Assembly (NCBI RefSeq): GCF_030158645.1
Contig: NZ_JAOASO010000045.1
Coordinates: 1 to 64,000 of the forward strand
Reading direction: 5' to 3'
Source of the DNA: Hydrogenophaga sp.
GTDB lineage: Bacteria > Pseudomonadota > Gammaproteobacteria > Burkholderiales > Burkholderiaceae_C
DNA: 64,000 bases
Within the stretch, counting starts at the first letter, position 1. Every line of letters begins with the position of its first letter. Shown one piece after another: positions 20,692 to 53,416 of the stretch. The notes below the pieces were generated by a model. That model did no database searches and was not told the DNA's origin. It saw only the letters and a list, made by a program, of their open reading frames with translations. Position numbers and translations under genes: made by a program.

Positions 20692-20718
20692 TCGCCGCAC
20701 CCTTTCAAGGCCAACGCC

Positions 20719-35339: not shown

Positions 35340-36091
35340 TGGCGCCAGCCCGCGCGCTCCTTGCGGCACTGCTCGCCACCGGTCTCAACGCATGGGCGCA
35401 GACGCCCTTGCCCGCCTTCGTGCAGACCGATGGCACGCTCAACCCCGCGTGGCGCTTCGTCGGATTCCCCAAGGCCAAGGCCGACCTGCCGCCCACCCGT
35501 TTTGAAGCCGGGCGCGTGGACAGTGTGGCCGCCGTGCAGGTGGCCACCGCGTCCAGCTACGGCACGCTGGTGCACGACTGGGCAGGCACCGCACCCGCCC
35601 GGTTGCAGTGGCGCTGGCGGCTGGACACACCGCTCTCGGGCGGCCAGAGCGCGCCCGACATCCTCACCAAAGCCGGCGACGACGCAGCTCTCAAGGTCTG
35701 TGTGATGTTCGACCACGCGCTGGACCGTGTGCCCTTTGTGGAGCGCACCGTGCTGCGCATTGCGCGCAGCGTGAGCGGCGAAGCCCTGCCGGCCGCCACC
35801 GTGTGCTACGTGTGGGACAGCACCCACACCGCTCTCACGCAGGGCCCCAACCCGTACACCAAACGCGTGCGCTTCATCAGCCTGCAGGGGCGAGGTGCGC
35901 CGCTGGCACGCTGGATCAACGAGTCGCGGGACGTGGCACAGGACTTCGCCACGCTCTTTGCCGACGAGTTGCCCGCAGGCACCCCCGCACCGCCCATCAC
36001 CCGCGTGCTGCTGGGCGCCGACAGCGACAACACCGCCAGCACCAGCAGCGGCTGGGTGGCCGACCTCCGGTGGTCCGACCGGGCGCCTTAA
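35339..36091 (+). CDS. DUF3047 exported protein
   Basis: A 250-residue protein with a signal peptide (ALLAALLATGLNAWAQ) and the DUF3047 core (WRWRLDTPLSGG, KAGDDAALKVCVMFD, YVWDSTH, RFISLQGRG, then LLGADSDNTAS near the end). The fold is likely a beta-sandwich; the function is unknown. The ATG at 35339 overlaps the stop of the VTT-reductase gene (TGATG), so the two are translationally coupled and probably work in the same envelope process. Confidence 0.82.
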   Translation: MAPARALLAALLATGLNAWAQTPLPAFVQTDGTLNPAWRFVGFPKAKADLPPTRFEAGRVDSVAAVQVATASSYGTLVHDWAGTAPARLQWRWRLDTPLSGGQSAPDILTKAGDDAALKVCVMFDHALDRVPFVERTVLRIARSVSGEALPAATVCYVWDSTHTALTQGPNPYTKRVRFISLQGRGAPLARWINESRDVAQDFATLFADELPAGTPAPPITRVLLGADSDNTASTSSGWVADLRWSDRAP

Positions 36092-36114
36092 CGCGCCACG
36101 TACCATCGGAGCCC

Positions 36115-37688: not shown

Positions 37689-37757
37689 GCGCGTTCTCCT
37701 GAAAACCGTGCTGGACCCATGCTACGCGCAGGGCCACACAGTCAGCCAGCCGGGCCG

Positions 37758-38453
37758 TCAACAGCCGAGCTGCTCGGCCAGGTGCACCAGGCTGCGCGCG
37801 TGAAAGGTGTTGGCCGCATCGGGTGACACGTCCTTGGGGTGCTGGGCACCGAACTCCAGCGGGCGCTCGATGTAGGCGGTGCGCAATCCGCAGGCCCGCG
37901 CCGCGGCCAGGTCGTCCTGGTGGGCGGCCACCAGCATCACGTCGCCGGGTGCCACGTCAAACACCCGGGCCACGCCCAGGTAGGTGGCCGGGTCGGGTTT
38001 GTAGGCGCGGAACACCTCGGCCGAGAGCACGCAGTCCCAGGGCAATCCCGCGCGTTTGGCCATGTTCGTGAGGAGACCGATGTTGCCGTTGGACAGGCTG
38101 CAGATGGTGTGGCGACTCTTCAGCCTGGTGAGCCCGGCCACCGTGTCGGGCCACGGATCGAGCCGGTGCCAGACCTTGTTGAGGTGCTGCTTCTGCGCCT
38201 CGGTGAGGTCCGTCAGTCCGAACTGCGGCAGCAGGTCATTGAGGATCAGCCGGTGAAGATCGTCGATCAGCGTCCAGCCCAGTTCGCCCGAGCGCACGCG
38301 CTGCATGGCCGGCTGGTAGCCCGCGCGCCAGGCCAGCGCAAACGCATCGGCGTCCACCTGCGGGTAAAGCGAAGCGACTTCGCGCTGGATGCTGCCGTGC
38401 CAGTCGACCACGGTGCCGAAGATGTCGAAGGCGAGGATGGGTGGGTGGGTCAT
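37758..38453 (-). CDS. Haloacid dehalogenase type II-like hydrolase
   Basis: A 231-residue HAD-superfamily protein. The nucleophile Asp10 is in LAFDIFGTVVDWH, the Ser motif is CSLSNGN, the Lys motif YKPDP and the acidic motif VAAHQDDLAAA, in the order typical of type II (L-2-haloacid) dehalogenases. The start is ATG 38453, overlapping the stop of the RidA-like gene by 4 bp. It is the last gene of an apparent senB-selD-ridA-HAD transcript. Substrate unknown; dehalogenase activity is not implied by context. Confidence 0.85.
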   Translation of the reverse strand: MTHPPILAFDIFGTVVDWHGSIQREVASLYPQVDADAFALAWRAGYQPAMQRVRSGELGWTLIDDLHRLILNDLLPQFGLTDLTEAQKQHLNKVWHRLDPWPDTVAGLTRLKSRHTICSLSNGNIGLLTNMAKRAGLPWDCVLSAEVFRAYKPDPATYLGVARVFDVAPGDVMLVAAHQDDLAAARACGLRTAYIERPLEFGAQHPKDVSPDAANTFHARSLVHLAEQLGC

Positions 38454-38839
38454 GGGTTGGACCGTTTGAGTGCCGTGACCTCGATCTCGATCTTCATGCG
38501 CGGATCGAGCAGGCCGGCGGTGATCATCATGGCGGCGGGGCGCGCCACACCCAGGTGTTTGCGCAGCACCGGCCAGCAGGCTTCGAAGTTGGCGCCATCG
38601 GGCAGCACGTAGTTCACACGCACCACGTCGTCCAGGCTCGCACCCGCCTGCTGGAGTGCGGCGGCGATGTTCTGCAGGCACTGCTCGGCCTGCTCCACCA
38701 CGCTCTCGGAGATGGTCATGGTGGTGTAGTCAAAGCCGGTGGTGCCCGAGACGAACACCCAGTCGCCCGCCACCACGCCGCGCGAATAGCCGATCTGCGC
38801 TTCGAACGGCGAACCCGAGCTGATGTGCCTGCGGTCCAT
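38450..38839 (-). CDS. RidA/YjgF-family protein
   Basis: A 129-residue protein with the RidA core (GDWVFVSGTTGFDY, QAEQCLQNIAAALQQAGASLDDVVRVNYVL, KIEIEVTAL). By my alignment to E. coli RidA from the KIEIE end, the catalytic Arg of the enamine deaminase group is replaced by a hydrophobic residue, so it may belong to a Rid subgroup without imine deaminase activity. It starts 3 bp after the selD stop and overlaps the HAD gene by 4 bp. Confidence 0.85.
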   Translation of the reverse strand: MDRRHISSGSPFEAQIGYSRGVVAGDWVFVSGTTGFDYTTMTISESVVEQAEQCLQNIAAALQQAGASLDDVVRVNYVLPDGANFEACWPVLRKHLGVARPAAMMITAGLLDPRMKIEIEVTALKRSNP

Positions 38840-38842
38840 GGT

Positions 38843-39916
38843 TCAGCGCACTTCCAGGCGCACGCCGTCGGCGGCGGGTGCCACGATCTCGCCAATGTCG
38901 GCGGCGCCGGCAAAGCCGTGCTGTTGGAAGATCGCCAGCACCGCGTCCACCGCCTCAGGCGCGCAGGCCACCAGCAGGCCGCCGCTGGTTTGCGGGTCGG
39001 ACAGCAAGGCCTGGTCCACCGGCTGCAGGTTGCTGGCCAGACGGACTTCATGACCGTAGGCCGCCCAGTTGCGGCCCGAAGCACCAGTGACCATGCCGGC
39101 TGCGGCCAGTTCGCGCACGCCGCCGATGAGCGGCACGCGCGCCATGTCGATGCGCACCGTGGTGTTGGCGCCGCGCGCCATTTCCATCACGTGGCCGGCG
39201 AGACCAAAGCCGGTGATGTCGGTGAGCGCGTGCACGCCGTCCAGCGCCGCGAGATCGGGGCCGGGCGTGTTGAGCTTGGTGGTGTTCTCGATCATCTGCG
39301 CGTAACCCTCGGTGCTCAGCGCGTCTTTCTTCAGCGCGGCCGAGAGCACACCCACGCCGATCGGCTTGCCCAGGATCAGGCGGTCGCCCACCTTCGCATC
39401 GGCATTGCGCTTCACACGCTGGGGGTGCACCAGGCCCAGGGCCACCAGACCGTAGATGGGCTCGACCGAGTCGATGGTGTGGCCACCCGCGATGGGGATG
39501 CCGGCCGCGCGGCAAACGTCCTGTCCGCCTTCCAGGATCTTGCCGATGGTCTCCGTGGACAACACACCGATGGGCATGCCGACCAGCGCCAGCGCCATGA
39601 TGGGTGTGCCGCCCATGGCGTACACGTCGCTGATGGCGTTGGTGGCGGCGATGCGACCGAAGTCGTACGGATCGTCCACGATGGGCATGAAGAAGTCGGT
39701 GGTGGCGATCAGCGCCTGCTCGTCGTTGAGCTGGTACACGGCCGCGTCGTCGGCGGTCTCGATGCCGACCAGCAGCTCCTTCGGCATCGGCATGGCCGCC
39801 GTGCCTTTCAGGATCTCGCTGAGCACGCCGGGCGCGATCTTGCAGCCGCAGCCGCCGCCGTGCGAGAGGCTGGTGAGGCGGGGCTGGGTGGCGGCGGTGG
39901 GGGTGGGTGCGTTCAT
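38843..39916 (-). CDS. selD: Selenophosphate synthase (SelD; SenC of the selenoneine pathway)
   Basis: Makes monoselenophosphate from selenide and ATP. The 357-residue protein has the N-terminal loop SHGGGCGCK with the catalytic Cys (C23) and Lys (K26); position 23 is Cys, not selenocysteine. Further motifs are ATTDFFMPIVDDPYDFGRIAATNAISDVYAMGG and the C-terminal LTDITGFGLAGH and DPQTSGGLL. The start ATG at 39916 lies 37 bp after senB. No selA, selB, selC or selU is in the window, and the neighbours are senB and senA, so the product is probably used for selenoneine. Confidence 0.95.
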   Translation of the reverse strand: MNAPTPTAATQPRLTSLSHGGGCGCKIAPGVLSEILKGTAAMPMPKELLVGIETADDAAVYQLNDEQALIATTDFFMPIVDDPYDFGRIAATNAISDVYAMGGTPIMALALVGMPIGVLSTETIGKILEGGQDVCRAAGIPIAGGHTIDSVEPIYGLVALGLVHPQRVKRNADAKVGDRLILGKPIGVGVLSAALKKDALSTEGYAQMIENTTKLNTPGPDLAALDGVHALTDITGFGLAGHVMEMARGANTTVRIDMARVPLIGGVRELAAAGMVTGASGRNWAAYGHEVRLASNLQPVDQALLSDPQTSGGLLVACAPEAVDAVLAIFQQHGFAGAADIGEIVAPAADGVRLEVR

Positions 39917-39953
39917 GGGTGTCTCCAGGGGAAATGAATTCGGTGGCGCGCGT

Positions 39954-40922
39954 TCAGCGCAGCTCGTGCAACACGGCCAGCAAGTTGGCCTGCTCGGTGC
40001 GTGGATCGAACAACGGCACGCGAAGCTCACATTGTGCGTGCAGGGCGTCCAGCCTGCCACCGGCCTCGCCCAAGCCCGCACGGCAGTCGCGCAAGGCCTG
40101 GACCAGCGCGGGCGCATCTCCGGGCGCAAAGTAGCCGCCGTAGTCGGTGCCCAACATGCCCACATTGCCGTCGATGCGGGAAGCCAGCACCGGCGTGCCG
40201 CACAGCACCGCCTCCAGCAGCACATGGGCACCGCCTTCCATGCGGCTGGTGTGCACCAGCACATGCGCTCGCTGGATGCGCGCGCGTGTCGCAGCGTGTG
40301 GCAACCCACCGAGCCAGCGGTAGTGCGGGCAGTCCCGCGCGGTGGCCTGCGCAGCCTCGCCCAGCGTGGGGTCGAGCGCGGCGCCGATGTGGTCGATGTG
40401 GATGCCCTCGTCGGGGCTCAGCAGGCGGGCTGCTTCAAACAGGGTCTGCGGCCATTTTTCGTCGCGCAGGTGGCCCACCATCACCGCGCGCAGGTGGGTG
40501 GTGGTCTTGGCCAGCGTCTGGCGCCGCGTGCCCGACTGGAACACCACGCGGCATTTGCCGCGCAGCGCCTCGGGCAACGCCAGCGGGCCTTGCGCCTGCA
40601 ACGCGACGAGGCGGTGCGCGAGCGCCAGCGAGCGTTGGGCATCGGCATCGGTTCCGATGTCGCGGTAAAGGTCGGTGCCGGTGAGTGCCAGCACCAGCGG
40701 GCGCTCCGGATGCGCTTTCGCCCAGGCGGCCACCGAAGGGGCCGAGCGGCGGGCGTGCAGGGCCAGCAACACATCACCCTCATCGCCCTGCGCCCATGCT
40801 TTTGCCACCCTCACCCGATAATGACCCGAGAGCATTCGCGTCCAGCGGCGGGCGGTTTGCCAGTTGCCGTTGTTGGCATCGGCCAGGGCCGGCGTGACGA
40901 TACAGATCGAAGGTTTTTTCAT
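39954..40922 (-). CDS. senB: Selenosugar synthase SenB (GT4-type glycosyltransferase)
   Basis: A 322-residue glycosyltransferase of GT-B type: start MKKPSICIVTPALADANNGNWQTA, central LVLALTGTDLYRDI and the donor-site motif RMEGGAHVLLEAVLCGTPVLAS. In the described pathway SenB joins selenophosphate to a UDP-sugar, giving a selenosugar. The assignment rests on this family type next to selD and the EgtB-like senA. ATG 40922 overlaps the senA ATG on the other strand (CATG, 40920-40923). An in-frame ATG at 40985 would add 21 residues and overlap senA. Confidence 0.87.
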   Translation of the reverse strand: MKKPSICIVTPALADANNGNWQTARRWTRMLSGHYRVRVAKAWAQGDEGDVLLALHARRSAPSVAAWAKAHPERPLVLALTGTDLYRDIGTDADAQRSLALAHRLVALQAQGPLALPEALRGKCRVVFQSGTRRQTLAKTTTHLRAVMVGHLRDEKWPQTLFEAARLLSPDEGIHIDHIGAALDPTLGEAAQATARDCPHYRWLGGLPHAATRARIQRAHVLVHTSRMEGGAHVLLEAVLCGTPVLASRIDGNVGMLGTDYGGYFAPGDAPALVQALRDCRAGLGEAGGRLDALHAQCELRVPLFDPRTEQANLLAVLHELR

Positions 40923-42123
40923 GGGTTTGAGCAGGTCAGCGATTGTGGGCGATGCGCCCTCGGGCGGGTGGTCCGCGGCCGACATGGCCCGCCATGCCGA
41001 CCGGGCAACGCTGGTCAGCGCGCTGGTGGACGCACGCGAGCGCACGCTGCGGCAGTTTGCGGCCTTCGAGCACGCCCTCGGCCCCAGCCTGCGCGTGCCC
41101 TGCGCGCCCGAGCTCAACCTGCCGCTGTGGGAGCTCGGTCACATCGGCTGGTTCGCCGACTGGTGGATCGCACGCAACCCGCAGCTCGGTCGGGGCCTGC
41201 AGGCGGACCCGCTGGTGGCCCGAAGCCCCGCCCGCCAGGTGGCGCGCGGCGTGGACGCCGAGGCCCTGTACGACTCCAGCGCGATCGCGCACGACCACCG
41301 CTGGCAGCTCGACCTCCCCGACGCCGAGACCACCCGCGCCGACCTGTCGGCCAGCCTCGCCCAGACGCTGGCGTTGCTGTGGGAGGCGCCCGATGACGAC
41401 ACCGGCCTGTACTTTTTCCGCCTCGCCCTGTTTCACGAAGACATGCACGCGGAGGCGGCGGTTTACATGGCGCAGGCGTTGGGCATCGACGTGGGCCATC
41501 CCTCGCCGCCCGTTCGGGCTGAGCCTGTCGAAGTCCGCACGGTCCACGTGCCGGCCAACCGCTGGACCCTGGGCTGGAGCGGCCCCGGCTTCGCTTTCGA
41601 CAACGAACTCGGCGCCCACCCCATTGACGTGAACGCCTTCGAGATCGACGCCGGCCCCGTGACCTGGGCGCGCTACCTGCCGATGGTGGACGCTGGTCTG
41701 GCCAGCGTTCCTCGTTACCTGCGGCGCACACCCCGGGGCTGGGAAACGCAGCGCTTCGGCACCTGGCAAGCGCTGGACCTGCAGGCCCCGGCCTGCCACC
41801 TGAGTGCCACCGAAGCGCAAGCCTGGTGCCGCTGGACCGGGCGGCGCCTGCCCACCGAAGCCGAATGGGAAGTGGCGGCCCACACTGCGCCGGGCTTTGC
41901 CTGGGGCGAGGTCTGGGAATGGACCGCGAACGCCTTCGCGCCCTTCCCCGGCTTTGCACCCCACCCCTACCGTGACTACTCGCAGCCGTGGTTCGATGGC
42001 CGCCCGGTGCTCAAGGGCGCCAGCAGCGCCACCCACCCACGCATGCGCCATCCCCAATACCGCAACTACTTCCCCGCCGAGCGCACCGACATCCTGGCCG
42101 GCTTTCGCAGCGTGCGCCCCTGA
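40921..42123 (+). CDS. senA: Selenoneine synthase SenA (EgtB-like)
   Basis: A 400-residue two-domain enzyme: N-terminal DinB-like helical domain with iron-binding His74 (ELGHIGW) and His172/His176 (FHEDMH), and a C-terminal formylglycine-generating/C-lectin-type domain (WTLGWSGPGFAFDNE, TGRRLPTEAEWEVAA, VWEWTANAF). It is expected to couple hercynine with the selenosugar made by SenB. The end NYFPAERTDILAGFRSV differs from the egtB product here (NFFPTDVRWQFSGLRLA), fitting a separate subfamily. ATG 40921 has GAAGG 7 bp upstream; ATG 40984 is an alternative. A 23-bp repeat is inserted in frame near residue 197. Confidence 0.87.
   Translation: MGLSRSAIVGDAPSGGWSAADMARHADRATLVSALVDARERTLRQFAAFEHALGPSLRVPCAPELNLPLWELGHIGWFADWWIARNPQLGRGLQADPLVARSPARQVARGVDAEALYDSSAIAHDHRWQLDLPDAETTRADLSASLAQTLALLWEAPDDDTGLYFFRLALFHEDMHAEAAVYMAQALGIDVGHPSPPVRAEPVEVRTVHVPANRWTLGWSGPGFAFDNELGAHPIDVNAFEIDAGPVTWARYLPMVDAGLASVPRYLRRTPRGWETQRFGTWQALDLQAPACHLSATEAQAWCRWTGRRLPTEAEWEVAAHTAPGFAWGEVWEWTANAFAPFPGFAPHPYRDYSQPWFDGRPVLKGASSATHPRMRHPQYRNYFPAERTDILAGFRSVRP
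41511..41533 (+). repeat. Dispersed 23-bp repeat, copy 2 (inside senA)
   Basis: This copy begins CGTTCGGGCTGAGCC and ends TCGAAG. It is the reverse complement of the copy at 34609-34631 with one mismatch, and lies in frame at the junction between the two senA domains, encoding P-V-R-A-E-P-V-E. Sequences of this kind are, to my knowledge, widespread as short interspersed elements in Comamonadaceae and other proteobacteria. Confidence 0.8.
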
Positions 42124-42924
42124 TCACCGACCCTTGCGGTAAGCGTCGGGCGTGGTGCCGGTCCGGCGGCGAAACATGCCGATGAAGGCCGAGGTGGAGG
42201 CGTAGCCCAGGTCTTGTGCGATGTGCTCCACCTTCCCGCCGGCTTCCAGCAGGGCCATGGCTTTCACCGTGCGCAAGCGCTGGCGCCATTCGGCCAGCGT
42301 CATGCCCAGCTGGCTCTGGCAGCGGCGCATGAGCGTGCGCTCGGTGGTGTGGACCAACGCCGCCCAATCGGCCACCGAACGCGCATCGCCCGGCGCCGCC
42401 TCCAGCGCCTGCAACACCGGCGCGAGCAGCGGGTCGTTGGACGTGGGCAGGTAACTGCCGCTCACCGGCGCGGTCTCCAGCTGGTCCAGCACCACCTGCA
42501 GCAGCCGCTCGTGCGGCGCGCCGTGTGCTTGCGCGGGCGGCGTCTGGCGCAGGTGCTCCAGCAGACCGTGCAGCAAGGGGCTCACGGTGAGCGCACACAC
42601 CTGCTGCGGCATGCGCGTCGCACGCTCGGGCACCACGTACACCGAACAGAACGAAGCCTCCTGGCGGTTCATGCCGGTGTGGTCCACGTCGGGGGGGAGC
42701 CACAGGCCGTACTGCGGCGGGATCAGGTAGTGCTCGGTGGCGAGCTGCACCTCCATCACGCCGCTGAAGGCGTAGACGAACTCGCCCCAGTGGTGGCGGT
42801 GGTGCGGGTAGGCCGCGTCGGCCGGCATCTGCGCTGCGCGGAACACGATGTCGCCCGGCAGCGCGTCGGTGAACGGCGCGGTCTGCAGGTGTTTGGCGGG
42901 CGGGCGGGCGGGGGAGCGCGGCAT
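42124..42924 (-). CDS. AraC-family transcriptional regulator with cupin sensor domain
   Basis: A 266-residue regulator. Residues about 25-115 form an AraC-type cupin (YPHHRHHWGEFVYAFSGVMEV, YGLWLPPDVDHTG), and the C-terminal 100 residues hold the double helix-turn-helix (SVADWAALVHTTERTLMRRCQ; IAQDLGYASTSAFIGMFRRRTGTTPDAYRKG). It ends exactly against the convergent senA stop with no gap. It is divergent from the EamA transporter gene across 96 bp, so that gene is the more likely target. Confidence 0.92.
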   Translation of the reverse strand: MPRSPARPPAKHLQTAPFTDALPGDIVFRAAQMPADAAYPHHRHHWGEFVYAFSGVMEVQLATEHYLIPPQYGLWLPPDVDHTGMNRQEASFCSVYVVPERATRMPQQVCALTVSPLLHGLLEHLRQTPPAQAHGAPHERLLQVVLDQLETAPVSGSYLPTSNDPLLAPVLQALEAAPGDARSVADWAALVHTTERTLMRRCQSQLGMTLAEWRQRLRTVKAMALLEAGGKVEHIAQDLGYASTSAFIGMFRRRTGTTPDAYRKGR

Positions 42925-43020
42925 GTTGACGGTCTGGGGAAGCGATTTGTCCGATTCTCGTTATCTGCCGCAGATCGGTCAAAGGACAATCACCCACCCG
43001 AACCCCCAACGAACGCCTTT

Positions 43021-43962
43021 GTGGACACCCGCCAATCTCTCGACGCCCGCGCCATTGGCCTCATGGTCGTGCTCTGCCTCACCTGGAGCCTGCAGCAGAT
43101 CGCGCTGAAGGCGACCGCGGCCGACTTCTCACCCATCCTGCAAATCGCGGTGCGATCGGGCATCGCCGCTGCGCTGGTGGGCCTGCTCATGTGGCGCCGG
43201 GGCGAAGGCTCGCTGCTGGCCGACGGCGCCTGGAAACCCGGCGTGGTGGCCGGTGCCCTGTTCGGGCTTGAATTCCTGCTGGTGGGCGAAGGCCTGGGCC
43301 ACACCTCGGCGGCGCACATGGTGGTGTTTCTCTACACCGCGCCGATCTTCGCGGCCCTGGGCCTGCAGTGGAAGCTGCCGTCCGAACGGCTGGCACCGGC
43401 GCAGTGGCTGGGCATCCTGCTGGCCTTCACCGGCATCGCCATTGCCTTCCTGCTGCGGGACACGCAGGGCAACCAGGACTGGAGCCGCATGCTCTGGGGC
43501 GACCTGCTGGGATTGCTGGGGGGCGCGGCCTGGGGCGCCACCACCGTGGTCATCCGCACCACGCGGCTGAGCCGCCTGCCGGCCACGCAAACCCTGCTCT
43601 ACCAGCTGCTCGGGGCCTTCGCGCTGCTGCTGCCGGCCGCCTTCCTCCTGGGCCAGACCACTTTCAACCCCACCCCGGTGGTGTGGGCGAGCCTGGCGTT
43701 CCAGTCGGTGGTGGTGGCCTTCGTCAGTTTTCTGGTCTGGTTCTGGCTGATGCGAAGCTACCTGGCCTCACGGCTGGGCGTGTTGTCGTTTCTCACGCCC
43801 TTGTTCGGTGTGGTGCTGGGCGCCTGGCTGTTGGGTGAGCGCATTGAAGCCAGCTTCCTCACCGGCGCCCTGCTGGTGCTCGCCGGCGTGGTGATGGTGA
43901 GCGGTCATGAGCTCTTCGCGCAGTGGTGGCGCAACCTCAGGCCGGCGCCCAGAACACGCTGA
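43021..43962 (+). CDS. EamA/DMT-family transporter
   Basis: A 313-residue inner membrane protein with ten predicted helices in two EamA repeats (first half LTWSLQQIALKA...; second half DLLGLLGGAAWGATTVVIR... and FLTPLFGVVLGAWLLGERI). The start is GTG at 43021 (VDTRQSLDARAIGLM); the frame is open further upstream but that overlaps the divergent regulator. Such proteins usually export amino acids or other metabolites. Its end overlaps the convergent egtD by 26 bp. Confidence 0.9.
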   Translation: MDTRQSLDARAIGLMVVLCLTWSLQQIALKATAADFSPILQIAVRSGIAAALVGLLMWRRGEGSLLADGAWKPGVVAGALFGLEFLLVGEGLGHTSAAHMVVFLYTAPIFAALGLQWKLPSERLAPAQWLGILLAFTGIAIAFLLRDTQGNQDWSRMLWGDLLGLLGGAAWGATTVVIRTTRLSRLPATQTLLYQLLGAFALLLPAAFLLGQTTFNPTPVVWASLAFQSVVVAFVSFLVWFWLMRSYLASRLGVLSFLTPLFGVVLGAWLLGERIEASFLTGALLVLAGVVMVSGHELFAQWWRNLRPAPRTR

Positions 43963-44938
43963 ACCAGCCCTGGGCGTCGCTCCAGTGGCGCGCCTCGCCG
44001 AAGCCGGCGTTGCGCAACAGCGCTTCAAAGTGGTCGGGCTGCCACTTGTAGGAGCTCTCGGTGTGCAGCCGTTCGCCCGCGGCAAACACACGCTGCCCAC
44101 CGGGCCAGCACACGGTCTGCTGCGCACTCGCTTCCAGGTGCATCTCGATGCGCGAAGCCTCTTCGTTGAACAGCCCCACGTGGCGCCACGCAGCCGGCGC
44201 AAAGTCGGCCCCCAGCACGCGGTTCACGTTGAGGAGCAGGTTGCGGTTGAACGCGCCGGTGACGCCCAGCGCGTCGTCGTAAGCCGGCTCCAGCACGGCG
44301 CGGGGTTTGACGCGGTCCACACCGATCAACAAGCCCCCGCCCGCGCCGCCCGAGCGGCACACCGCGTGCGCTTGCCTGAGCAGGGCCAGTGCCTCGACCG
44401 GGTCGAAGTTGCCGATGCTGGAGCCCGGGTAGAACACCACGCGCGGCGCCTGCGCGGCCGGGCCGTCGGCCAGCCAGTCGGCCACCTCGGCGCCGAGCGC
44501 AAAGCGGCTTGAAAAATCCATGCCCACGCCCAGCATCGCCAGCGCCGGGTGTTGCTGCTGCAGCTGCTGCAAGGTGTCGCGCAAATAGTCCACCGAAATG
44601 TCGATCGCCACATACGCGGCGGGCCGCAACACCGGGAACAGCCGGGCCGCCTTCACACAGCTGCCCGCGCCCAGGTCGAGCAGGATGGATCCGCCGGGCA
44701 CCACCTGCGCCATGTCGGCACCGTGCTGCTGGAAGATCGCCGCCTCGGTGCGCGTCGGGTAGTACTCGGGCAGCTCGGTGATGGCGTCGAACAGGCGCGA
44801 ACCCAGCGCGTCGTACAGGAACTTCGGCGAGATGTGAGCCGGCGTGGCCTGCAAACCAGCCACGAGTTCGGCGCGCAAGGCGGCCCGGTCTTCGTGGTGG
44901 AGCTGGATGAAGGGCGGAGCTGTGGTCTGGAGGGTCAT
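43937..44938 (-). CDS. egtD: L-histidine N(alpha)-methyltransferase EgtD
   Basis: Trimethylates histidine to hercynine using SAM, the first step of ergothioneine synthesis and the source of hercynine for selenoneine. The 333-residue protein (about 320 is usual) has ISPKFLYDALGSRLFDAITELPEYYPTRTE near the start, the SAM motif LLDLGAGSCVKAARL, FYPGSSIGNFDP, the NRDL-like segment FNRNLLLNVNRVLGADF and an ESSYKW motif. It lies between senA and egtB in this region but is transcribed alone; its own promoter should be in the 170-bp gap to the ABC transporter genes. Confidence 0.95.
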   Translation of the reverse strand: MTLQTTAPPFIQLHHEDRAALRAELVAGLQATPAHISPKFLYDALGSRLFDAITELPEYYPTRTEAAIFQQHGADMAQVVPGGSILLDLGAGSCVKAARLFPVLRPAAYVAIDISVDYLRDTLQQLQQQHPALAMLGVGMDFSSRFALGAEVADWLADGPAAQAPRVVFYPGSSIGNFDPVEALALLRQAHAVCRSGGAGGGLLIGVDRVKPRAVLEPAYDDALGVTGAFNRNLLLNVNRVLGADFAPAAWRHVGLFNEEASRIEMHLEASAQQTVCWPGGQRVFAAGERLHTESSYKWQPDHFEALLRNAGFGEARHWSDAQGWFSVFWAPA

Positions 44939-45108
44939 GGGCGCTTTCGGGAAGGGTCTTTATAGCGGAGGCGTCTTTCAACGTCGGTGCGCTGACCCGC
45001 TTTTCTACAGGGTCTTGCAAAGCTGACGGTCACTCGCCCGGCGCGGCGCGCGTCTGGAGCGGGTCGGGTCTAATACGCGCTCCCCAATCCCCCTTGACCG
45101 GATTCACC

Positions 45109-45972
45109 ATGTTCACAAACACCCCCCGCACCCTGCGCGCACTGTTCACCTGCGCCGTGCTCAGCCTCACCGCCGCCGCCCACGCGCAAACCGTGTTCCG
45201 CGTCACCACCATCCCCGAAGAAGCCGCCACCGAGCAGATCCGCAAGTTCACGCCGCTGGCCACCTACCTCGAAAAAGAACTCGGCGTCAAAGTCGAATTC
45301 ACCCCGGTGAGCGACTACCCCGCCGCCGTGGAAGCGCTGGTCAACAAAAAAGTTGACCTGGTCTGGTTCGGCGGCTTCACGTTTGTGCAGGCCAACATCC
45401 GCTCGGGTGGCAAGGTCGTGCCGCTGGCCCAGCGCGAGGAAGACACCAAGTTCCAGTCGGTCTTCATCGCCAAGACCGACTCGGGCATCAAGACCCTGGC
45501 CGACATGAAGGGCAAGCAGGTCTCGTTCGGCTCGCAGAGCAGCACCTCGGGCCACCTGATGCCGCGCAGCTTCCTGCTGGCGGCCAACATCGAGCCTGAG
45601 AAAGACTTCCGCCGCATCGCCTACAGCGGCGCGCACGACGCGACCATCGCCTCGGTGGTCAGCGGCAAGGTCGACGCGGCCGCGCTGGACATCACGGTCT
45701 GGAAAAAATTCGTGGCCGAGAACAAGGTCGACACCAAGGCGGTCGACGTGTTCTTCACCACGCCGGGTTACTTCAACTACAACTGGTCGGTGCACGCCGA
45801 CACGCCGGTGGCGATGCAGCAGAAGATCAAGGCCGCGCTGATCGGCCTGTCGCCGGCCAACCCCGAGCACGCCGAGATCTTGAAGCTCAACCGCGCCACG
45901 CGTTACATCGAAACCAAGCCCGAGAACTACAAGGGCCTGGAAGCCGCTGCGCGCAGCGCCGGCCTGCTCTGA
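45109..45972 (+). CDS. PhnD-like ABC transporter substrate-binding protein
   Basis: A 287-residue exported binding protein of the phosphate/phosphite/phosphonate (PhnD/SsuA/transferrin) group: signal peptide to AHAQ (about residue 27), then FRVTTIPEEAATEQIRKFTPLATYLEKELG, VDLVWFGGFTFVQA and SFGSQSSTSGHLMPR, typical of the oxyanion-binding cleft. ATG 45109 is chosen over an in-frame TTG at 45094. It heads a four-gene importer (binding protein, ATPase, two permeases) placed between egtD and egtB. The ligand is unknown; no C-P lyase genes are nearby. Confidence 0.85.
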   Translation: MFTNTPRTLRALFTCAVLSLTAAAHAQTVFRVTTIPEEAATEQIRKFTPLATYLEKELGVKVEFTPVSDYPAAVEALVNKKVDLVWFGGFTFVQANIRSGGKVVPLAQREEDTKFQSVFIAKTDSGIKTLADMKGKQVSFGSQSSTSGHLMPRSFLLAANIEPEKDFRRIAYSGAHDATIASVVSGKVDAAALDITVWKKFVAENKVDTKAVDVFFTTPGYFNYNWSVHADTPVAMQQKIKAALIGLSPANPEHAEILKLNRATRYIETKPENYKGLEAAARSAGLL

Positions 45973-45988
45973 TTCACCAGGCGGTCGG

Positions 45989-46822
45989 TTGAACATCACC
46001 CTGCAAGGCGTCTCGGCACGCCACCCGGCCGCGCGCTCCGGCCATGCGCCCGCGCTGCGCTCGCTCGATCTGCAAATCGCCTCGGGCGAGCAGGTCGCGG
46101 TGATCGGGCCGTCGGGCGCGGGCAAGACCACGCTGCTGCAGGTCATGGCCTGCGCGCTGCCGCCCACCGAAGGCCGCTTCACGCTCGACGGTCGCGAGCC
46201 CTGGGCGCTGCCGCGATCTGCGCTGCAGCGTCAACGGGGCCAGTTGTTTCTGGCGCCGCAGGTCCCGCCGCTGCCGCCGCGCCAGCGCGTGGTCACCTCG
46301 GTGCTCGCCGCGCGCCTGCCGGCCATGGGTTTGCCGGCCAGCTTGCGATCGCTGTTCTATCCCAACGACATCCCGGCCGCCTTCGACGCACTGGACCACT
46401 TTGACCTCGCCGACAAGCTCTTTGAACGGGTCGACCGGCTCTCGGGCGGTGAGCGCCAGCGCGTGGGCCTGGCGCGCGCGCTGCTCGCACCGGCCCGGCT
46501 CTGGCTGATCGACGAACCTTTGTCCGCGCTGGACCCCACCCGCTCCAAACAAGCCGTGTCCGCGCTGCAGGACGGCGCGCGCGAGCGCGGCGTGACGCTG
46601 GTGGCCACGCTGCACCAGGTGGACGTGGCGCTGGCCCACTTCCCGCGCATCGTCGGTTTGCGAGACGGGCAGCTGGCCTTTGACCTGCCCGCCGCCGAGG
46701 TGACGCAGGAGCGCCTGGCACGCCTGTACGACCAGTTTGAACACGAGCTGCGTGGTGAGGTGCCGGTGGTGGTGGCCGAGCCGCAGGCCACACCGCAACC
46801 CGCGGTGATGCACTGCCGCTGA
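45989..46822 (+). CDS. PhnC-like ABC transporter ATP-binding protein
   Basis: A 277-residue ATPase with Walker A GPSGAGKT (about 40-47), signature LSGGERQRVGLARALL and Walker B LWLIDEPLSALD, followed by the H-loop ATLHQVD. The last 30 residues are a Pro/Glu/Val-rich tail. The start appears to be TTG at 45989 with AGGCGG upstream. It is 16 bp downstream of the binding-protein gene and 2 bp before the first permease gene. Confidence 0.85.
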   Translation: MNITLQGVSARHPAARSGHAPALRSLDLQIASGEQVAVIGPSGAGKTTLLQVMACALPPTEGRFTLDGREPWALPRSALQRQRGQLFLAPQVPPLPPRQRVVTSVLAARLPAMGLPASLRSLFYPNDIPAAFDALDHFDLADKLFERVDRLSGGERQRVGLARALLAPARLWLIDEPLSALDPTRSKQAVSALQDGARERGVTLVATLHQVDVALAHFPRIVGLRDGQLAFDLPAAEVTQERLARLYDQFEHELRGEVPVVVAEPQATPQPAVMHCR

Positions 46823-46824
46823 GC

Positions 46825-47667
46825 ATGAGCGCGGCGATCCATTACTTGCGCACCGCGCCCGCGCGCGACCCTGCCTGGGCCTCCCGCGTCTTCTGGCTCG
46901 GCTTGGGCGCCGTGCTGCTGTGGCCGCTCATGGTGGCCACCGAGTTCAAGCCCTGGATCTTTCTGGAGCCCGACAACCTCAAGGTCACTCGCCAGTTTCT
47001 GGCCACCTTCTGGCCGCTGGTGGTCAACGCCGAGTTCATGGGCATGGTGGCGCGTGAAACCTGGCGCACCGTGGCCATGGCGACCGCCGGCGTCACGCTG
47101 GCGTTGATCGTGGCCATCCCGCTCACGCTGCTGTCGGTGCGCCTGCTGTCGGTCTCGGCCCTGTCGGGCCGCATGGCGCGCGGGCCGTTCTGGCTGCGCC
47201 AGCTGGTGCGCTGGTTGCTCATCGTGCTGCGCAGCATCCCCGAGCTGGTCTGGGCATTGGTGTTCGTGCGGGTGGTCGGCCTGGGCCCCACGGCCGGCGT
47301 GCTGGCGATCGCGCTCACCTACGGCGGCATGCTGGGCAAGGTGTATGGCGAGATCCTGGAAAGCGGTGAATCGCACGCCACCGAAACGCTTCTGCGCAAC
47401 GGCAGTGGCCGCCTGCAGGCCTTCTTTTACGGCCTGCTGCCGACCAACGCGGCCGAGCTCACCAGCTACACCGTGTACCGTTGGGAGTGCGCGATCCGCT
47501 CCTCGGTGGTGCTCGGCTTCGTGGGCGCGGGCGGCCTCGGCCAGCAGCTCGACAACTCCATGAAGATGTTCAACGGCGGCGAGGTGGCCACCATGCTGCT
47601 GGTGTTTGTGTTGCTGGTCGCGCTGGCGGACCGGGTGAGTTCGTGGCTGCGAAAGTCGCTCGGATGA
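46825..47667 (+). CDS. PhnE-like ABC transporter permease 1
   Basis: A 280-residue membrane protein with about six helices and the PhnE-type signature LLPTNAAELTSYTVYRWECAIRSSVVLGFVGAGGLGQQL. The segment IVLRSIPELVWALVFV is also typical. Its stop overlaps the start of the second permease by 4 bp (ATGA). Two different permeases imply a heterodimeric channel. Confidence 0.88.
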   Translation: MSAAIHYLRTAPARDPAWASRVFWLGLGAVLLWPLMVATEFKPWIFLEPDNLKVTRQFLATFWPLVVNAEFMGMVARETWRTVAMATAGVTLALIVAIPLTLLSVRLLSVSALSGRMARGPFWLRQLVRWLLIVLRSIPELVWALVFVRVVGLGPTAGVLAIALTYGGMLGKVYGEILESGESHATETLLRNGSGRLQAFFYGLLPTNAAELTSYTVYRWECAIRSSVVLGFVGAGGLGQQLDNSMKMFNGGEVATMLLVFVLLVALADRVSSWLRKSLG

Positions 47668-48488
47668 AACCCACCGCCGCCAACCCACCCTACAAGCTGC
47701 CCCCGCGCCTGTTCGACGCGCGCTGCAAGGCCTGCTGGTTCACCGCCGGCCTCATGGTGCTGGTGGTCGCGAGCTTCGCCTCGCTCGACCTGCAGTGGGG
47801 CCAGTTCCTCTCGCTGGAGGCGGCGCGCAGCATGGGCCGCTTCGTGGCGGAATTTTTCCCGCCCGACCTCTCGCCGGTGTTCGTGAAGAAGGTCGCCGTC
47901 GGCGCCTGGGAAACCCTGGCCATGTCGGCGCTGGGCACGGCACTGGCCGCGGCGGCCGGCCTGGCGCTGGCCCTGCCGGCGAGCCGCCTGCACGAGGCCG
48001 ACGCGGCCTGGGCCCGCGTGCCCACCCGCTGGGTGCTCAACGCGCTGCGCAGCATCCCCGAGCTGGTGTGGGCCGCGCTGCTGCTCATCTCGGCCGGCCT
48101 GGGTCCGTTCGCCGGCACGCTGGCGCTGGCCTTTCACACCACCGGTGTGCTGGGCCGCCTGTTCGCCGAAGCGATTGAAAACGCACCACCCGGCCCGGGC
48201 GACGCGCTGCGCGTGCAGGGTGTGGGCAATGTCCGCGTGTTTCTCTACGCCACGCTGCCCCAGGTGCTGCCGCAGCTCATGAGCTACACGCTGTACCGCT
48301 GGGAAAACAACATCCGCGCCGCCGCCGTGCTGGGCGTGGTGGGCGCCGGTGGCCTGGGCCAGCTGCTGGCCTTCCACATGGGCCTGTTCCAGATGAACAA
48401 GACCGCCACCATCCTCGGCGCCATGCTGCTCATGGTGGCGGTGGTGGACGCGGCCAGCCACGCCGCGCGGCGGTTGCTGACACGGTAG
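47664..48488 (+). CDS. PhnE-like ABC transporter permease 2
   Basis: A 274-residue permease related to the first, with NALRSIPELVWAALLLIS and TLPQVLPQLMSYTLYRWENNIRAAAVLGVVGAGGLGQLL. Its final stop lies 3 bp from the end of the convergent hipA gene. Like many PhnE pairs, the two permeases resemble each other and probably arose by duplication. Confidence 0.88.
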   Translation: MKPTAANPPYKLPPRLFDARCKACWFTAGLMVLVVASFASLDLQWGQFLSLEAARSMGRFVAEFFPPDLSPVFVKKVAVGAWETLAMSALGTALAAAAGLALALPASRLHEADAAWARVPTRWVLNALRSIPELVWAALLLISAGLGPFAGTLALAFHTTGVLGRLFAEAIENAPPGPGDALRVQGVGNVRVFLYATLPQVLPQLMSYTLYRWENNIRAAAVLGVVGAGGLGQLLAFHMGLFQMNKTATILGAMLLMVAVVDAASHAARRLLTR

Positions 48489-48491
48489 TAA

Positions 48492-49784
48492 TCACACCCG
48501 ACGCGGCCGTTTGCCGCGCCGGCTCTGCGCCTCCAACTGCTCTGCCACTGCGGCCAGTTGCTCAGGGCGCTCAGCCAGCTCGGCAGCCCTGACAAAGGCG
48601 GGCTGGAACCGCGCCACGTTCTCGCCCGGCACACCCTGCTCCCGCAGGCGTTGCTGCCAGTGGCCCGCCACGTGGTAGGCGGCATCACCGAGCCAGGCCA
48701 CGGCGTCGGGCAATTCAACACCGAAGTAAGAACAGACCGACAGCAGGTTGGGAGCCGAGCAGTCCTGCGAACCATCGGGCAACACGCTGAGCGCCAACGA
48801 GCCCACGAAACTGGGCAACGGTGTGATGTCGAAGGCGGGCGACAAGCGCCAGCCCTGGCCCGTGTGCAGCAGGCCGTGGTTGCGAGGGTGGTCGTCCCGG
48901 TTGCCCACCAAGGCGTTGTAGGCCATGCGACGCCACAGCTCGGTGAGGTCTTGTCGGCAATGCTGCTCGTCCGTGATCCAGCGCCGCATGCGGTCGGCCA
49001 GCACCAGGTAAGAGCGGCGGGCGTCGCCCGGCAAGGCACGGGCGTCCAGATCCAGCACCGTGCGGGCACTGGCATACAGGTGGCGCTGCGGCCGCCGGGG
49101 ATCGCCGGCGCGATCAAAGCGTTCGATCAGAAAAACCTCGTGGCTGTCGTGACGGATGAAGCGGACCCTGGGCACCCGCAGCCCCAGCTCGGCCGCCATC
49201 TGCATCACCACAAATTCGCGCGCTGGAAGGTTGGGCGCGTCGCCCCGGTCTTGCAGCTTGGCCAGCCACAAGGAGCCATCGTTTTCGATCGTGGCCTTGG
49301 GGCGTTCACCGCCGGCACTGGTGCCGTCGTCCTCGTTCATGCGGCGTATGGCCCGGCTCGACGGCGTGTCCTCATCCAGCAATTGCACCTGCTCAATCAA
49401 CTCGTGCAGGGTGTGCGGCGTCCAGCGGAGCTTGGCCTCGATGTCGCTGCACACCTCGATGGCGCCCACGCCATCGGGTGGGCCCAGCGCAAGCAACTCC
49501 AGCGGACCCAGTTCCCGGGTGTGCCGGGCCTGCAGCCGGTCACGGCCATAACCATCCGGCACGGCGTCCTCGATCACGCCGGGCAGCGCATGTTCGCCCA
49601 ACAGCTTGATGGCCGCTGAGCCACGGCCCAGGCGCAGGTGCATCGGGTCCAGCGGGCGCACGCCTTGGGCCGATTTGTAGTGACCCTCGTAAACGAAACG
49701 GCCTGCGCCCGCCTCCACGTCGATGTGCGCGGCCAACACCGGTTCGTTCGATCCGGGCAGCCAGGTCCAGACCGGCGAAGTCAT
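48492..49784 (-). CDS. hipA: HipA-family serine/threonine kinase toxin
   Basis: A 430-residue HipA-like kinase. It has the N-terminal HipA domain (VYEGHYKSAQG..., PLDPMHLRL), the P-loop-like GGERPKA segment, the catalytic motif NRDDHPRNHGLL and the DITP metal-binding motif. In E. coli HipA phosphorylates glutamyl-tRNA synthetase and induces persistence; other family members hit other tRNA synthetases. It starts in a 4-bp overlap with the hipB-like antitoxin gene. Confidence 0.9.
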   Translation of the reverse strand: MTSPVWTWLPGSNEPVLAAHIDVEAGAGRFVYEGHYKSAQGVRPLDPMHLRLGRGSAAIKLLGEHALPGVIEDAVPDGYGRDRLQARHTRELGPLELLALGPPDGVGAIEVCSDIEAKLRWTPHTLHELIEQVQLLDEDTPSSRAIRRMNEDDGTSAGGERPKATIENDGSLWLAKLQDRGDAPNLPAREFVVMQMAAELGLRVPRVRFIRHDSHEVFLIERFDRAGDPRRPQRHLYASARTVLDLDARALPGDARRSYLVLADRMRRWITDEQHCRQDLTELWRRMAYNALVGNRDDHPRNHGLLHTGQGWRLSPAFDITPLPSFVGSLALSVLPDGSQDCSAPNLLSVCSYFGVELPDAVAWLGDAAYHVAGHWQQRLREQGVPGENVARFQPAFVRAAELAERPEQLAAVAEQLEAQSRRGKRPRRV

Positions 49785-50077
49785 CGAGGTCTCCGCAATT
49801 GGTGGGTGGCGAACGTGGTCAGCGCCGGATCGCGCTGCGGCGCCAGCAGCTCGTCGAACTCGGCCAGCAGACCCAGGGCATCCAGCGCGCGGGCCAGCGT
49901 GCCCAGGGCCACCCCGGGATGGCCTTTTTCCAGCGCCACGATGGAGCTGGCACCCACGCCCGCGAGGTGCGCGAGGTCGCGTTGCGTGAGTCCCCGAGCG
50001 CGGCGCGCGAGCGCCACGCGCTCCCCCAGGTCTTGCAGGGAGCGGCTCGGGAGAACGGGAAATGGCGTTGCGCTCAT
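49781..50077 (-). CDS. hipB: HipB-like antitoxin, HTH repressor
   Basis: A 98-residue Cro/C1-type helix-turn-helix protein (LGERVALARRARGLTQRDLAHLAGVGASSIVALEKG) starting at ATG 50077; the frame is open upstream but the extra part runs antisense to egtB's end. It should bind HipA and repress the operon. Two inverted repeats immediately upstream (50092-50150) are good operator candidates. Confidence 0.88.
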   Translation of the reverse strand: MSATPFPVLPSRSLQDLGERVALARRARGLTQRDLAHLAGVGASSIVALEKGHPGVALGTLARALDALGLLAEFDELLAPQRDPALTTFATHQLRRPR

Positions 50078-50091
50078 TGCTGAAATTTCAA

Positions 50092-50150
50092 TCCAAAACT
50101 TAGCGATTGGACTGATTTTCCAGCATTGTTGTGTTTTGTCCAGCCAAAAC
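50092..50150. promoter_or_regulatory. Candidate hipBA operator region, two inverted repeats
   Basis: Upstream of hipB lie TCCAA (50092-50096) with TTGGA (50107-50111), spacer 10, and GTTTTG (50133-50138) with CAAAAC (50145-50150), spacer 6. Both are perfect dyads in the otherwise AT-richer 92-bp gap between egtB and hipB. HipB-type repressors bind paired dyads near their promoter; binding here is inferred. Confidence 0.55.
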
Positions 50151-50169
50151 GGCCGATGACGCTGATGCG

Positions 50170-51489
50170 CTACAGACTGCGCGCCAACCGCAACCCGCTG
50201 AACTGCCAGCGCACATCGGTCGGGAAAAAGTTGCGGTAGCTCGCGCGCAGGTGCGACGCCGGGGTGGCGCACGAGCCGCCGCGCAGCACGGTCTGGTTGA
50301 CCATGAACTTGCCGTTGTACTCACCCACCGCGCCCTCGGTGGGCTGGTAGCCCGGGTAGGCGCTGTAGCTGCTCGCCGTCCATTCCCAGACGTCGCCAAA
50401 CATCTGCAGCAGATCCGTGCCGGCCGCGCGCGCGGGCATGGGGTGCAGGGCGCCGGCGTCCTGCAGGTTGCCCTGCACCGGCAGGCCGGCCGCCGCGGCT
50501 TCCCACTCGGCCTCGGTGGGCAGTCGGGCGCCGGCCTGGTCGGTGTGGGTGGCCGAGGTCCAGCGGGCGAACGCGTCGGCCTCGAAGTAGCTCACGTGCA
50601 CCACCGGCGTGTGCGGATCCAGCGGCACATCGCCGTGCAGGGTGAACACGGTGGGCAGGGCGTGGGTGTCTTGGTGGAGCGTCCAGTACAGCGGCGCGCG
50701 GATGCCTTGCGTGCGCACCCAGTCCCAGCCAGCCGCGAGCCACCAGCGCGGGTCGGTGTAGCCGCCGTCGCGCACAAATTCCAGCCACTCGCCGTGCGTC
50801 ACCAGGCGGTTCATGAGCGCGTGCGGCTCCAGCCACTGCCGGTGGCGCGGGGATTCGTTGTCGAACGCAAAACCCTCACCGGCGTGGCCGATCTCGACCA
50901 AACCCCCTTCACGCTCGATCCACTGCGCGGGCACCGGCGACACCGAGACCAGCGGCCAGGCACGTTGGTACACCGGGCGCAGCGGGTTGATGGCGAGCAG
51001 GTGCTTGATGTCGGTGAGCAGCAGCTCCTGGTGCTGCTGCTCGTGGTGCAGGCCCATCGCGATCAGGCTCAGTGCGTCGGCACTGTCGGTGTGCGCGATC
51101 AGGTGCGCGATGCGTTCGTCCACCTGCTCGCGCCAGCGCCACACCTCGGCCAGGTCGGGCCGGGTGACCAGCCCGCGCTGCGACCGGGGAAACTGCTCGC
51201 CCACGCCGTTGTAGTAGCTGTTGTAGAGCACGCGGAACGCGGGGTTGAAGGGCTTGAAACCGGGCTCATGGGGCTCCAGCACGAAGGTCTCGAAAAACCA
51301 GGTGACGTGGGCCAGGTGCCACTTGGTCGGGCTGGCGTCGGCCATGGACTGGGCCTGGCAGTCCTCGGGCGAGAGCGGTGCGGCCAGCGAGCGCGTTTGT
51401 CCCCGCACCGCCTGGTAGCGCCGCGCGAGTTCCGTGCGATCCGCACCGGAACGGTTGCCTGCGGCGGGCTGGGGGGAGTCGTGTCGCAT
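50170..51489 (-). CDS. egtB: Ergothioneine biosynthesis sulfoxide synthase EgtB
   Basis: Non-heme iron enzyme joining hercynine to a thiol (cysteine or gamma-glutamylcysteine) with O2. The 439-residue protein has iron ligands His61 (HLAHVTW) and His149/His153 (HHEQQHQE) in a DinB-like domain and an FGE-sulfatase-type C-terminal domain with RLPTEAEWEAAA, VWEWTASSY, NGKFMVNQTVLRGGS and YRNFFPTDVRWQFSGLRLA. It is a different paralogue from senA. No egtA, egtC or egtE was seen. It begins 9 bp after the PQQ-type dehydrogenase gene, so they may be co-transcribed. Confidence 0.94.
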   Translation of the reverse strand: MRHDSPQPAAGNRSGADRTELARRYQAVRGQTRSLAAPLSPEDCQAQSMADASPTKWHLAHVTWFFETFVLEPHEPGFKPFNPAFRVLYNSYYNGVGEQFPRSQRGLVTRPDLAEVWRWREQVDERIAHLIAHTDSADALSLIAMGLHHEQQHQELLLTDIKHLLAINPLRPVYQRAWPLVSVSPVPAQWIEREGGLVEIGHAGEGFAFDNESPRHRQWLEPHALMNRLVTHGEWLEFVRDGGYTDPRWWLAAGWDWVRTQGIRAPLYWTLHQDTHALPTVFTLHGDVPLDPHTPVVHVSYFEADAFARWTSATHTDQAGARLPTEAEWEAAAAGLPVQGNLQDAGALHPMPARAAGTDLLQMFGDVWEWTASSYSAYPGYQPTEGAVGEYNGKFMVNQTVLRGGSCATPASHLRASYRNFFPTDVRWQFSGLRLARSL

Positions 51490-51498
51490 GGAGGCCTT

Positions 51499-52611: not shown

Positions 52612-52688
52612 CAAGGGCATCTCCGGTGTCGTTTCACAAAGTCGACCGGGTTGGTGCCCGTGGGCACCCGAGGGTTCCCCCACGCCGG

Positions 52689-53273: not shown

Positions 53274-53416
53274 GAGAGGGCTCCTGTGCACCCGGCCACC
53301 CGCCACCGGGCGGCCTGAGAACTGGGCTGACTCTAACGGGCTTTCATGCCCGAGCACGCCGGCCGGCCTTTGGGCGTGAGCAGCCTGCCCGCTGCAAAAC
53401 CTGACAGAGTCCGCGC

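Follow-up and report, generated by a model that had tools for sequence, protein, structure and literature searches.

A selenoneine gene cluster of Hydrogenophaga with an ergothioneine-branch enzyme and a candidate selenium oxyanion importer beside it

We analyzed a 64,000-nucleotide stretch of Hydrogenophaga sp. (contig NZ_JAOASO010000045.1, positions 1 to 64,000; hereafter the window), whose source genome comprises 3.7 Mb in 169 contigs and is 92.8% complete. Between the end of selD at 38843 and the start of egtB at 51489, the genes follow one another in the order selD (-), senB (-), senA (+), an AraC-type regulator (-), an EamA permease (+), egtD (-), four importer genes (+), a HipA/HipB-like pair (-) and egtB (-); genes for a RidA-like protein, a HAD type II hydrolase, an 'Nterm_to_SelD' oxidoreductase and a DUF3047 protein lie just outside these limits (Table 1). 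A previous sequence-only reading had placed selD, senB, senA, egtD and egtB at 38843-51489, and our study finds all five there above their family cut-offs (matches are quoted throughout as score/curated cut-off of the NCBIfam models). Because the family matches are full-length and the genes are also found together in relatives, these five are, as judged from their sequences, real members of their families and not chance likenesses. That account did not include the four-gene ATP-binding cassette (ABC) importer at 45109-48488, between egtD and egtB, which is the subject of most of what follows.

The same reading had described two EgtB-like enzymes with an H...HxxxH motif and different C-terminal ends, and our alignments bear this out: the iron histidines of SenA (H53, H151 and H155, counted from ATG 40984) align with those of EgtB (H61, H149 and H153), and the C-termini are unlike. 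The common iron site and the 34% identity of the two proteins would be compatible with senA being a second sulfur enzyme, of EgtB or OvoA type, in an ergothioneine cluster that contains an unrelated glycosyltransferase. SenA nevertheless scores 464.4 on the SenA model against 171.3/360 on the EgtB model, and EgtB reaches 358.5/420 on the SenA model against 552.2 on its own. The best solved relatives of SenA are the selenoneine synthases 8ryz and 8k5i (366 bits), and those of EgtB are the EgtB structures 8qf6/6qki/6o6l (462.6 bits, full length). We also built a tree of 88 rows (both window proteins, 59 SenA-type and 23 EgtB-type proteins from relatives, and four solved references), a quick search with Shimodaira-Hasegawa-like approximate likelihood ratio (SH-aLRT) support only and with OvsA and EgtB 4x8b on long branches, in which the SenA and EgtB types are split at 100; SenA falls with SenA 8ryz of Variovorax paradoxus and not with EgtB, the grouping that would have refuted the sequence-only reading, and EgtB falls with the crystallized EgtB 8qf6 (clade supports 99 and 100). 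Given in addition that senA is found no more than 15 kb from senB in 26 of the 32 senB genomes among 60 genomes (own included), we regard a sulfur-only role of senA as scarcely credible. These 32 genomes are 29 over the cut-off and three (G004, G008 and G052) with partial matches or matches below it; these counts take in a partial senA match of G029 but not the partial senB of G014.

SenB is 64% identical to its V. paradoxus counterpart and keeps residues K158 (K156 here), N20, T23, E231 (E229 here), H58, R61, T83, T85 and R155 as well as the EGGAHV motif, with Glu in place of V. paradoxus V157; K158 has been proposed as the catalytic lysine of the V. paradoxus enzyme (PMC10891094). The CGCK motif of SelD, at residue 23, contains Cys and not selenocysteine. 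Because the source genome encodes SelU (343 bits) and, at 92.8% completeness, gave no SelA match, selD need not serve selenoneine alone. EgtD has a single match in the genome at E<=1e-40, which makes it likely, as far as gene content can tell, that one hercynine pool is shared by both products, as the sequence-only reading had suggested. Its statement that every step towards ergothioneine is encoded does not stand. The product of EgtB is a sulfoxide, and a C-S lyase is needed to obtain ergothioneine from it; EgtE-family lyases are over the cut-off in none of the 40 genomes searched, own included (weaker matches occur in 14), and our source genome (92.8% complete) has none at E<=1e-20. For this reason only the selenoneine arm appears complete at the locus, the ergothioneine arm being without an EgtE lyase, for which an unrelated lyase could substitute. 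On the strength of its genes, the cluster should make selenoneine.

The conservation of this arrangement was followed in the best 80 of the 253 SenB loci found, a set hence weighted to close relatives (largely Hydrogenophaga, other Comamonadaceae or Burkholderiales), with genes counted by tblastn under a lenient filter. Among the 45 loci with full 10-kb flanks, senA is present in 38, egtD in 35, the binding protein of the importer in 33 and egtB in 18; senA, senB, egtD and the binding protein occur together in 28, and 15 of these also have egtB. When at least 150 bits are required, the numbers for all 80 loci are 46 for the binding protein, 58 for egtD, 59 for senA, 23 for egtB and 67 for selD. 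In the 60-genome set, egtD lies within 15 kb of senB in 18 of the senB genomes, and senA, egtD, the binding protein and egtB are all within 20 kb of it in eight of the 60. The three-gene sen pathway is known, as the sequence-only reading had said (PMC9814287; PMC10891094), and egtD beside senAB is frequent in relatives.

Some of these loci have egtD, senB and selD with no senA nearby (L058, L060, L069, L073, L098 and others), and we considered them as a variant pathway. This was discarded where senA proved to be present but unlinked: SenA is over the cut-off in eight of the 12 genomes searched behind such or similar loci, including the five named, and was not found in those of L084, L089, L056 and L076. 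In L045, L046, L048, L049, L050, L052, L055, L062, L068, L079, L080, L083 and L106, egtB follows the importer permeases in the same orientation, an arrangement in which EgtB could be co-transcribed with the importer. Two motifs were tried as a conserved operator of egtD and the importer, namely TTCTTACAGGG, found in eight of 41 egtD-importer intergenic regions and in none of 100 shuffle rounds, and [GT]TNTAATA, found in 20 of the 41 (0.52 in shuffles); they look like promoter elements of close relatives instead.

The periplasmic binding protein of the importer belongs to TIGR04553, 'putative selenate ABC transporter substrate-binding protein' (357.8/250), and reaches 169.4/261.1 on the PhnD model. 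It is important to note that TIGR04553 is a hypothetical-equivalog model, so that its name is a database guess. We therefore surveyed 398 genomes of the phylum, taking the binding protein at E<=1e-70 and selD at E<=1e-40; 34 genomes carry the former and 129 the latter, and selD is present in 32 of the 34 carriers as compared with 97 of the 364 non-carriers (Fisher p 3.7e-15, a value overstated by the non-independence of related genomes). Outside our genus, the two genes are within 10 kb of each other in 12 of the 30 genomes that have both, and 229-342 bp apart in seven. We then examined 32 loci of the phylum, which are those of the carriers minus our own genome and one of the same genus, three of them on stretches shorter than 16 kb. 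Selenium genes are near the binding protein in 13 of the 32: six of these loci have sen genes, five have selD together with selU, one has selA and one has selD alone. Family scans of the genes found by tblastn covered SenB (L125, L126, L127, L129, L148), SenA (L126, L148), SelA (L147), EgtD (L148), SelU (L146, L149, L150, L151, L152) and SelD (L155), with L128 left out; the tally of scans is 12 genes in 10 of the 13 loci, all of the expected family and 11 over the curated cut-off, the SenA of L148 (379.4/420) being the only gene under it. A 'selB' match at 1-1014 of L131 (G359) proved to be CysN, a sulfate adenylyltransferase, and is excluded from the 13. As separate observations, cysN lies less than 10 kb from the TIGR04553 binding protein in that locus, and a distant genome (G326, C6:97533-99344) has two tandem TIGR04553 binding proteins by selD.

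Two genomes of the same genus, G003 and G012 (L157 and L158), place the importer in another selenium context. Here genes for formate dehydrogenase, fdhE, selA, a FAD protein, the four importer genes and selB are all read in one direction, no senA or senB is over the cut-off in either genome, and egtD and egtB are on other contigs than the importer. Scans of L157 gave 1164.8/814.2 for the formate dehydrogenase-N alpha subunit, 237.1/187.65 for FdhE and 455.1/242.25 for SelB; its FAD protein has a weak likeness to sulfide:quinone reductases. In G027, the binding protein is 5.3 kb from selA, and tblastn showed no full importer beside it. The selenocysteine operon bears on the idea that the importer belongs to the egt genes and takes up hercynine, ergothioneine or a related betaine. 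This idea draws on the position of the importer between egtD and egtB and its divergence from egtD (315 bp between family matches), but in G003 and G012 the importer does without either gene nearby, the ligands of the nearest folds are small inorganic oxyanions or phosphonates, and the known ergothioneine importers use another type of binding protein; we consider uptake of a betaine very unlikely.

The solved proteins nearest to the binding protein are PhnD1 and PtxB with phosphite, methylphosphonate or phosphate, followed by ArrX and AioX with arsenate, arsenite or sulfate. An AlphaFold model of the binding protein (mean pLDDT, the predicted local distance difference test, 85.3) backs the fold only. 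In the PhnD1 pocket, the residues that hold the phosphite oxygens and a capping tyrosine have been described (PMC5700983). Among 85 aligned proteins, reference included, PhnD1 residues Y46, F90, STS126-128 and H158 are kept in all 85 and the cap Y206 in 84; the window protein keeps the whole set, and has E, D and N in place of D13, N176 and D205. Selenite is, like phosphite, a three-oxygen pyramidal anion, with a lone pair in place of the phosphite hydrogen, while selenate has four oxygens. Because the pocket is of the phosphite type and selenite has this shape, the pocket would fit selenite better than selenate. The HtxB variant D206N, which binds neither phosphite nor hypophosphite, was considered as a parallel to the Asn of the window protein at PhnD1 position 205; we gave it no weight, since HtxB pairs D206 with an Arg and the two positions may therefore not be equivalent.

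We consider it probable that we are dealing with an island that leads from selenium to selenoneine, accompanied by one enzyme of the ergothioneine branch and equipped with a PhnD-type importer of a selenium oxyanion, most likely selenite. Several points weigh against this interpretation. The pocket appears to be equally a phosphite pocket and, because selenite and phosphite are alike in shape, phosphite is the main rival ligand. In addition to the non-independence noted above, the co-occurrence with selD was counted for TIGR04553 carriers, with no other PhnD-type transporter as a control. No selD match at E<=1e-40 was obtained for two of the 34 carriers: G319 is 78% complete, and G200 has a protein without the cap Tyr, beside which no permease was detected. 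Two of the 29 carriers among the 60 relatives, G006 and G019 (81% and 59% complete), lack both senB and selA. Finally, 19 of the 32 phylum loci show no selenium gene by the queries used, three of the 32 stretches being short.

These points leave room for the importer to be a phosphite, phosphate or phosphonate transporter that stands in the island by chance, with selenium entering through sulfate or phosphate systems, as has been reported for selenite and phosphate transporters (PMC9312934). PhnD1 and PtxB bind phosphite, phosphate and methylphosphonate (PMC5700983, PMC10284923), the residues of the phosphite pocket are shared and permease 2 is over the PhnE cut-off. The binding protein, on the other hand, is far under the PhnD cut-off and over that of TIGR04553, the ATPase fails the PhnC cut-off, only one of the two permeases passes PhnE, and no C-P lyase or phosphite dehydrogenase family was present among 20 scanned proteins at 35267-54760. 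Also against a phosphorus transporter are the presence of selD in 32 of 34 carriers and the linkage to sen, selD/selU or selA/selB genes in 13 of 32 phylum loci, and we judge this alternative unlikely. The importer is a good candidate for a dedicated selenium transporter, which according to reviews is still missing for bacteria and archaea.

From gene identity, catalytic residues, phylogeny and linkage we infer the fluxes, the imported ligand and the role of the oxidoreductase in the following scheme. The PhnD-type ABC importer would take in a selenium oxyanion, most likely selenite, which cell thiols or reductases would convert to selenide, possibly with help from the SelD-partner oxidoreductase. 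SelD would then make selenophosphate, which SenB would join with a UDP-sugar to form a selenosugar, while EgtD would convert histidine into hercynine, and SenA would combine selenosugar and hercynine into selenoneine. The same hercynine would be led towards ergothioneine by EgtB, the C-S lyase of that arm not having been found, and SelD would also feed SelU elsewhere in the genome.

The three pocket positions at which the window protein departs from PhnD1 define two allele types of the binding protein. Positions 13/176/205 are D/N/D in 49 of the 85 proteins (PhnD1 included), E/D/N in 31 (window included) and mixed in five, all of which belong to distant genomes of the phylum; the 46 binding proteins of SenB loci comprise 20 D/N/D, 26 E/D/N and no mixtures. 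With the three type columns removed, the E/D/N proteins form one clade at 100. When the allele type is mapped on a tree built from the ATPase and permeases of 77 loci (with several distant rows on long branches), it needs at least five changes, three of them forced by well-supported branches. The clearest pair is L049 and L050, whose ATPase, both permeases, egtD, senA, senB and egtB are 88-96% identical and whose oxidoreductases are 86% identical (selD, with only a short match in L050, is left out of this comparison), whereas their binding proteins (6162-7022 and 6109-6972) are 69% identical and of opposite type. In 60-base steps, DNA identity is 74-93% upstream, 92% in the signal-peptide step, 55-82% from +80 to +920 and 77-95% through the ATPase gene to +1640, a pattern expected if recombination had replaced the ligand-binding domain. 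Both types are found beside selA (E/D/N in G003 and G012, D/N/D in G027), so the selenium product alone does not set the type. It has been reported that D205 of PhnD1 touches the ligand and suggests a protonated oxygen (PMC5700983); on this basis, our best guess is that the alleles differ by charge or protonation of the ligand. We put forward a wider proposal, which is tentative and in our estimation somewhat doubtful: the operon would be a dedicated high-affinity importer for selenoneine, selenocysteine or selenouridine synthesis in different bacteria, the acid of the D/N/D allele recognizing a protonated, HSeO3--like oxyanion and the E/D/N allele of the window, with its acid moved to the cap, suiting a fully deprotonated selenium oxyanion. 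The alleles would be exchanged by recombination with a breakpoint close to where the signal peptide ends, the remainder of the operon being retained, and strains could thereby change their preference for selenium species or pH. Pairs such as L049/L050 are natural tests of what determines ligand choice.

Table 1. Coordinates and family evidence of the genes at the locus and just outside it.
Feature	Coordinates	Strand	Evidence
DUF3047 protein	35267..36091	+	Pfam PF11249 144.5 bits; in 18/80 SenB loci; often adjoins oxidoreductase gene in relatives
FAD/NAD oxidoreductase, Nterm_to_SelD	36115..37305	+	TIGR03169 318/310
HAD type II hydrolase	37758..38453	-	TIGR01428 163.2/125.4
RidA-like protein	38450..38839	-	PF01042 91.6 bits; 5/80 SenB loci
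selD/senC, selenophosphate synthase	38843..39916	-	544.5/299; TIGR00476 433.3/125; CGCK motif
senB, selenosugar synthase	39954..40922	-	TIGR04348 430.8/300
senA, iron-dependent selenoneine synthase	40984..42123 (alternative start ATG 40921)	+	NF041186 464.4/420
AraC-family regulator	42124..42924	-	family match; 2/80 SenB loci
EamA/DMT permease	43021..43962	+	PF00892 115.2 bits; 2/80 SenB loci
egtD, histidine N-alpha-methyltransferase (to hercynine)	43937..44938	-	TIGR03438 352.1/290.9
Periplasmic binding protein, candidate selenium importer, E/D/N allele	45109..45972	+	TIGR04553 357.8/250
Importer ABC ATPase	45989..46822	+	best match PhnC family 185.1, under cut-off 266.1
Importer permease 1	46825..47667	+	PhnE family 193.4, under cut-off 216.7
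Importer permease 2	47664..48488	+	PhnE family 258.9, over cut-off 216.7
HipA-like protein	48492..49784	-	weak HipA-family match 30/401; 0/80 SenB loci
HipB-like antitoxin/regulator	49781..50077	-	TIGR03070 62.9/71.65; 0/80 SenB loci
egtB, sulfoxide synthase	50170..51489	-	TIGR03440 552.2/360

Among the neighboring genes, the oxidoreductase at 36115-37305 likely has a role with SelD, as relatives suggest: its family (TIGR03169) occurs fused to the N-terminus of SelD in other bacteria, and a member is in one open frame with SelD in 20 of the 80 SenB loci. The HAD type II hydrolase near selD, a possible unrecognized step of selenium metabolism, has matches in 31 of the 80 (25 at 73% identity or more and six at 27-31%). 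The AraC, EamA, RidA and HipAB genes were dropped as parts of the system, since they are conserved in just 0-5 of the 80 loci; they are probably local insertions, the HipA-like gene among them. The longest senA open reading frame begins at TTG 40864, and its ATG 40921 overlaps the start codon of senB on the opposite strand. Between the divergent senB and senA, at 40923-40983, there is a CACAAT element, possibly a promoter element, that is invariant in 15 aligned sequences (the window and 14 relatives). Because this element sits between the genes and ATG 40984 is the next in-frame ATG of senA, a start at 40984 is the likelier one, and the overlapping start codons are probably a start-site artifact. 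Elsewhere in the window, a RiPP (ribosomally synthesized and post-translationally modified peptide) cluster at 20344-22930, which we take to be bufferin-like, consists of a DUF2282 protein with several Cys, an MbnB/TglH-type enzyme, its DUF2063 partner and a DoxX protein, and a sigma-70-like gene lies close to it at 19115-19771.

In the open-licence literature searched, we found no mention of TIGR04553 or TIGR03169 and no paper on this importer, most subscription journals being outside that scope. Two reviews state that prokaryotes have no known transporter of high affinity that is specific for selenium (PMC9312934, PMC13188914), and a 2024 study says the same of specific selenium transporters and reports that five archaeal candidates were deleted, none of which was required (PMC11097638). 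The locus described here offers a concrete candidate that is linked to a pathway for a selenium product and, in genomes of the same genus, to selenocysteine genes; if the proposal is true, it would also account for the supply of selenium to selenoneine synthesis in a bacterium living at environmental selenium levels.

Earlier linkage studies put forward YedE as a selenium transporter and described an unnamed ABC ATPase close to orphan selD genes (PMC5322559, PMC5029168). Both resemble our case in having been proposed from selD linkage; YedE, unlike the window ABC importer, is a membrane protein related to sulfur transporters, and the ABC ATPase could be related to the importer. The PhnDCE/PtxABC phosphite importers (PhnD1 5lq5 and 7s6g; PtxB 5o2j) have a like fold and oxyanion pocket (STS, H and cap Tyr), but the window binding protein is 38% identical to PhnD1, is linked to selenium genes and differs at D13, N176 and D205. 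It passes the cut-off of TIGR04553, and both alleles pass this same model; the family name says selenate, whereas the pocket argues for three-oxygen selenite. On the side of the enzymes, the window EgtB matches the 8qf6/6qki/6o6l type over its full length, with no EgtE lyase found with it, and OvsA (8ux5), an ovoselenol synthase and thus a related selenoxide synthase, is on a separate long branch and gives 117 bits as compared with 366 for SenA. The closest known system is senABC of V. paradoxus DSM 30034, which has the same three enzymes, with the same catalytic residues in SenB and with SenA in the same clade; at our locus, egtD, egtB and the ABC importer are within the same 13 kb (the importer having been looked at on the window side alone). 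In summary, known enzymes stand here with a candidate importer that had been met just as a database family name, and whose binding protein exists as two exchangeable alleles.

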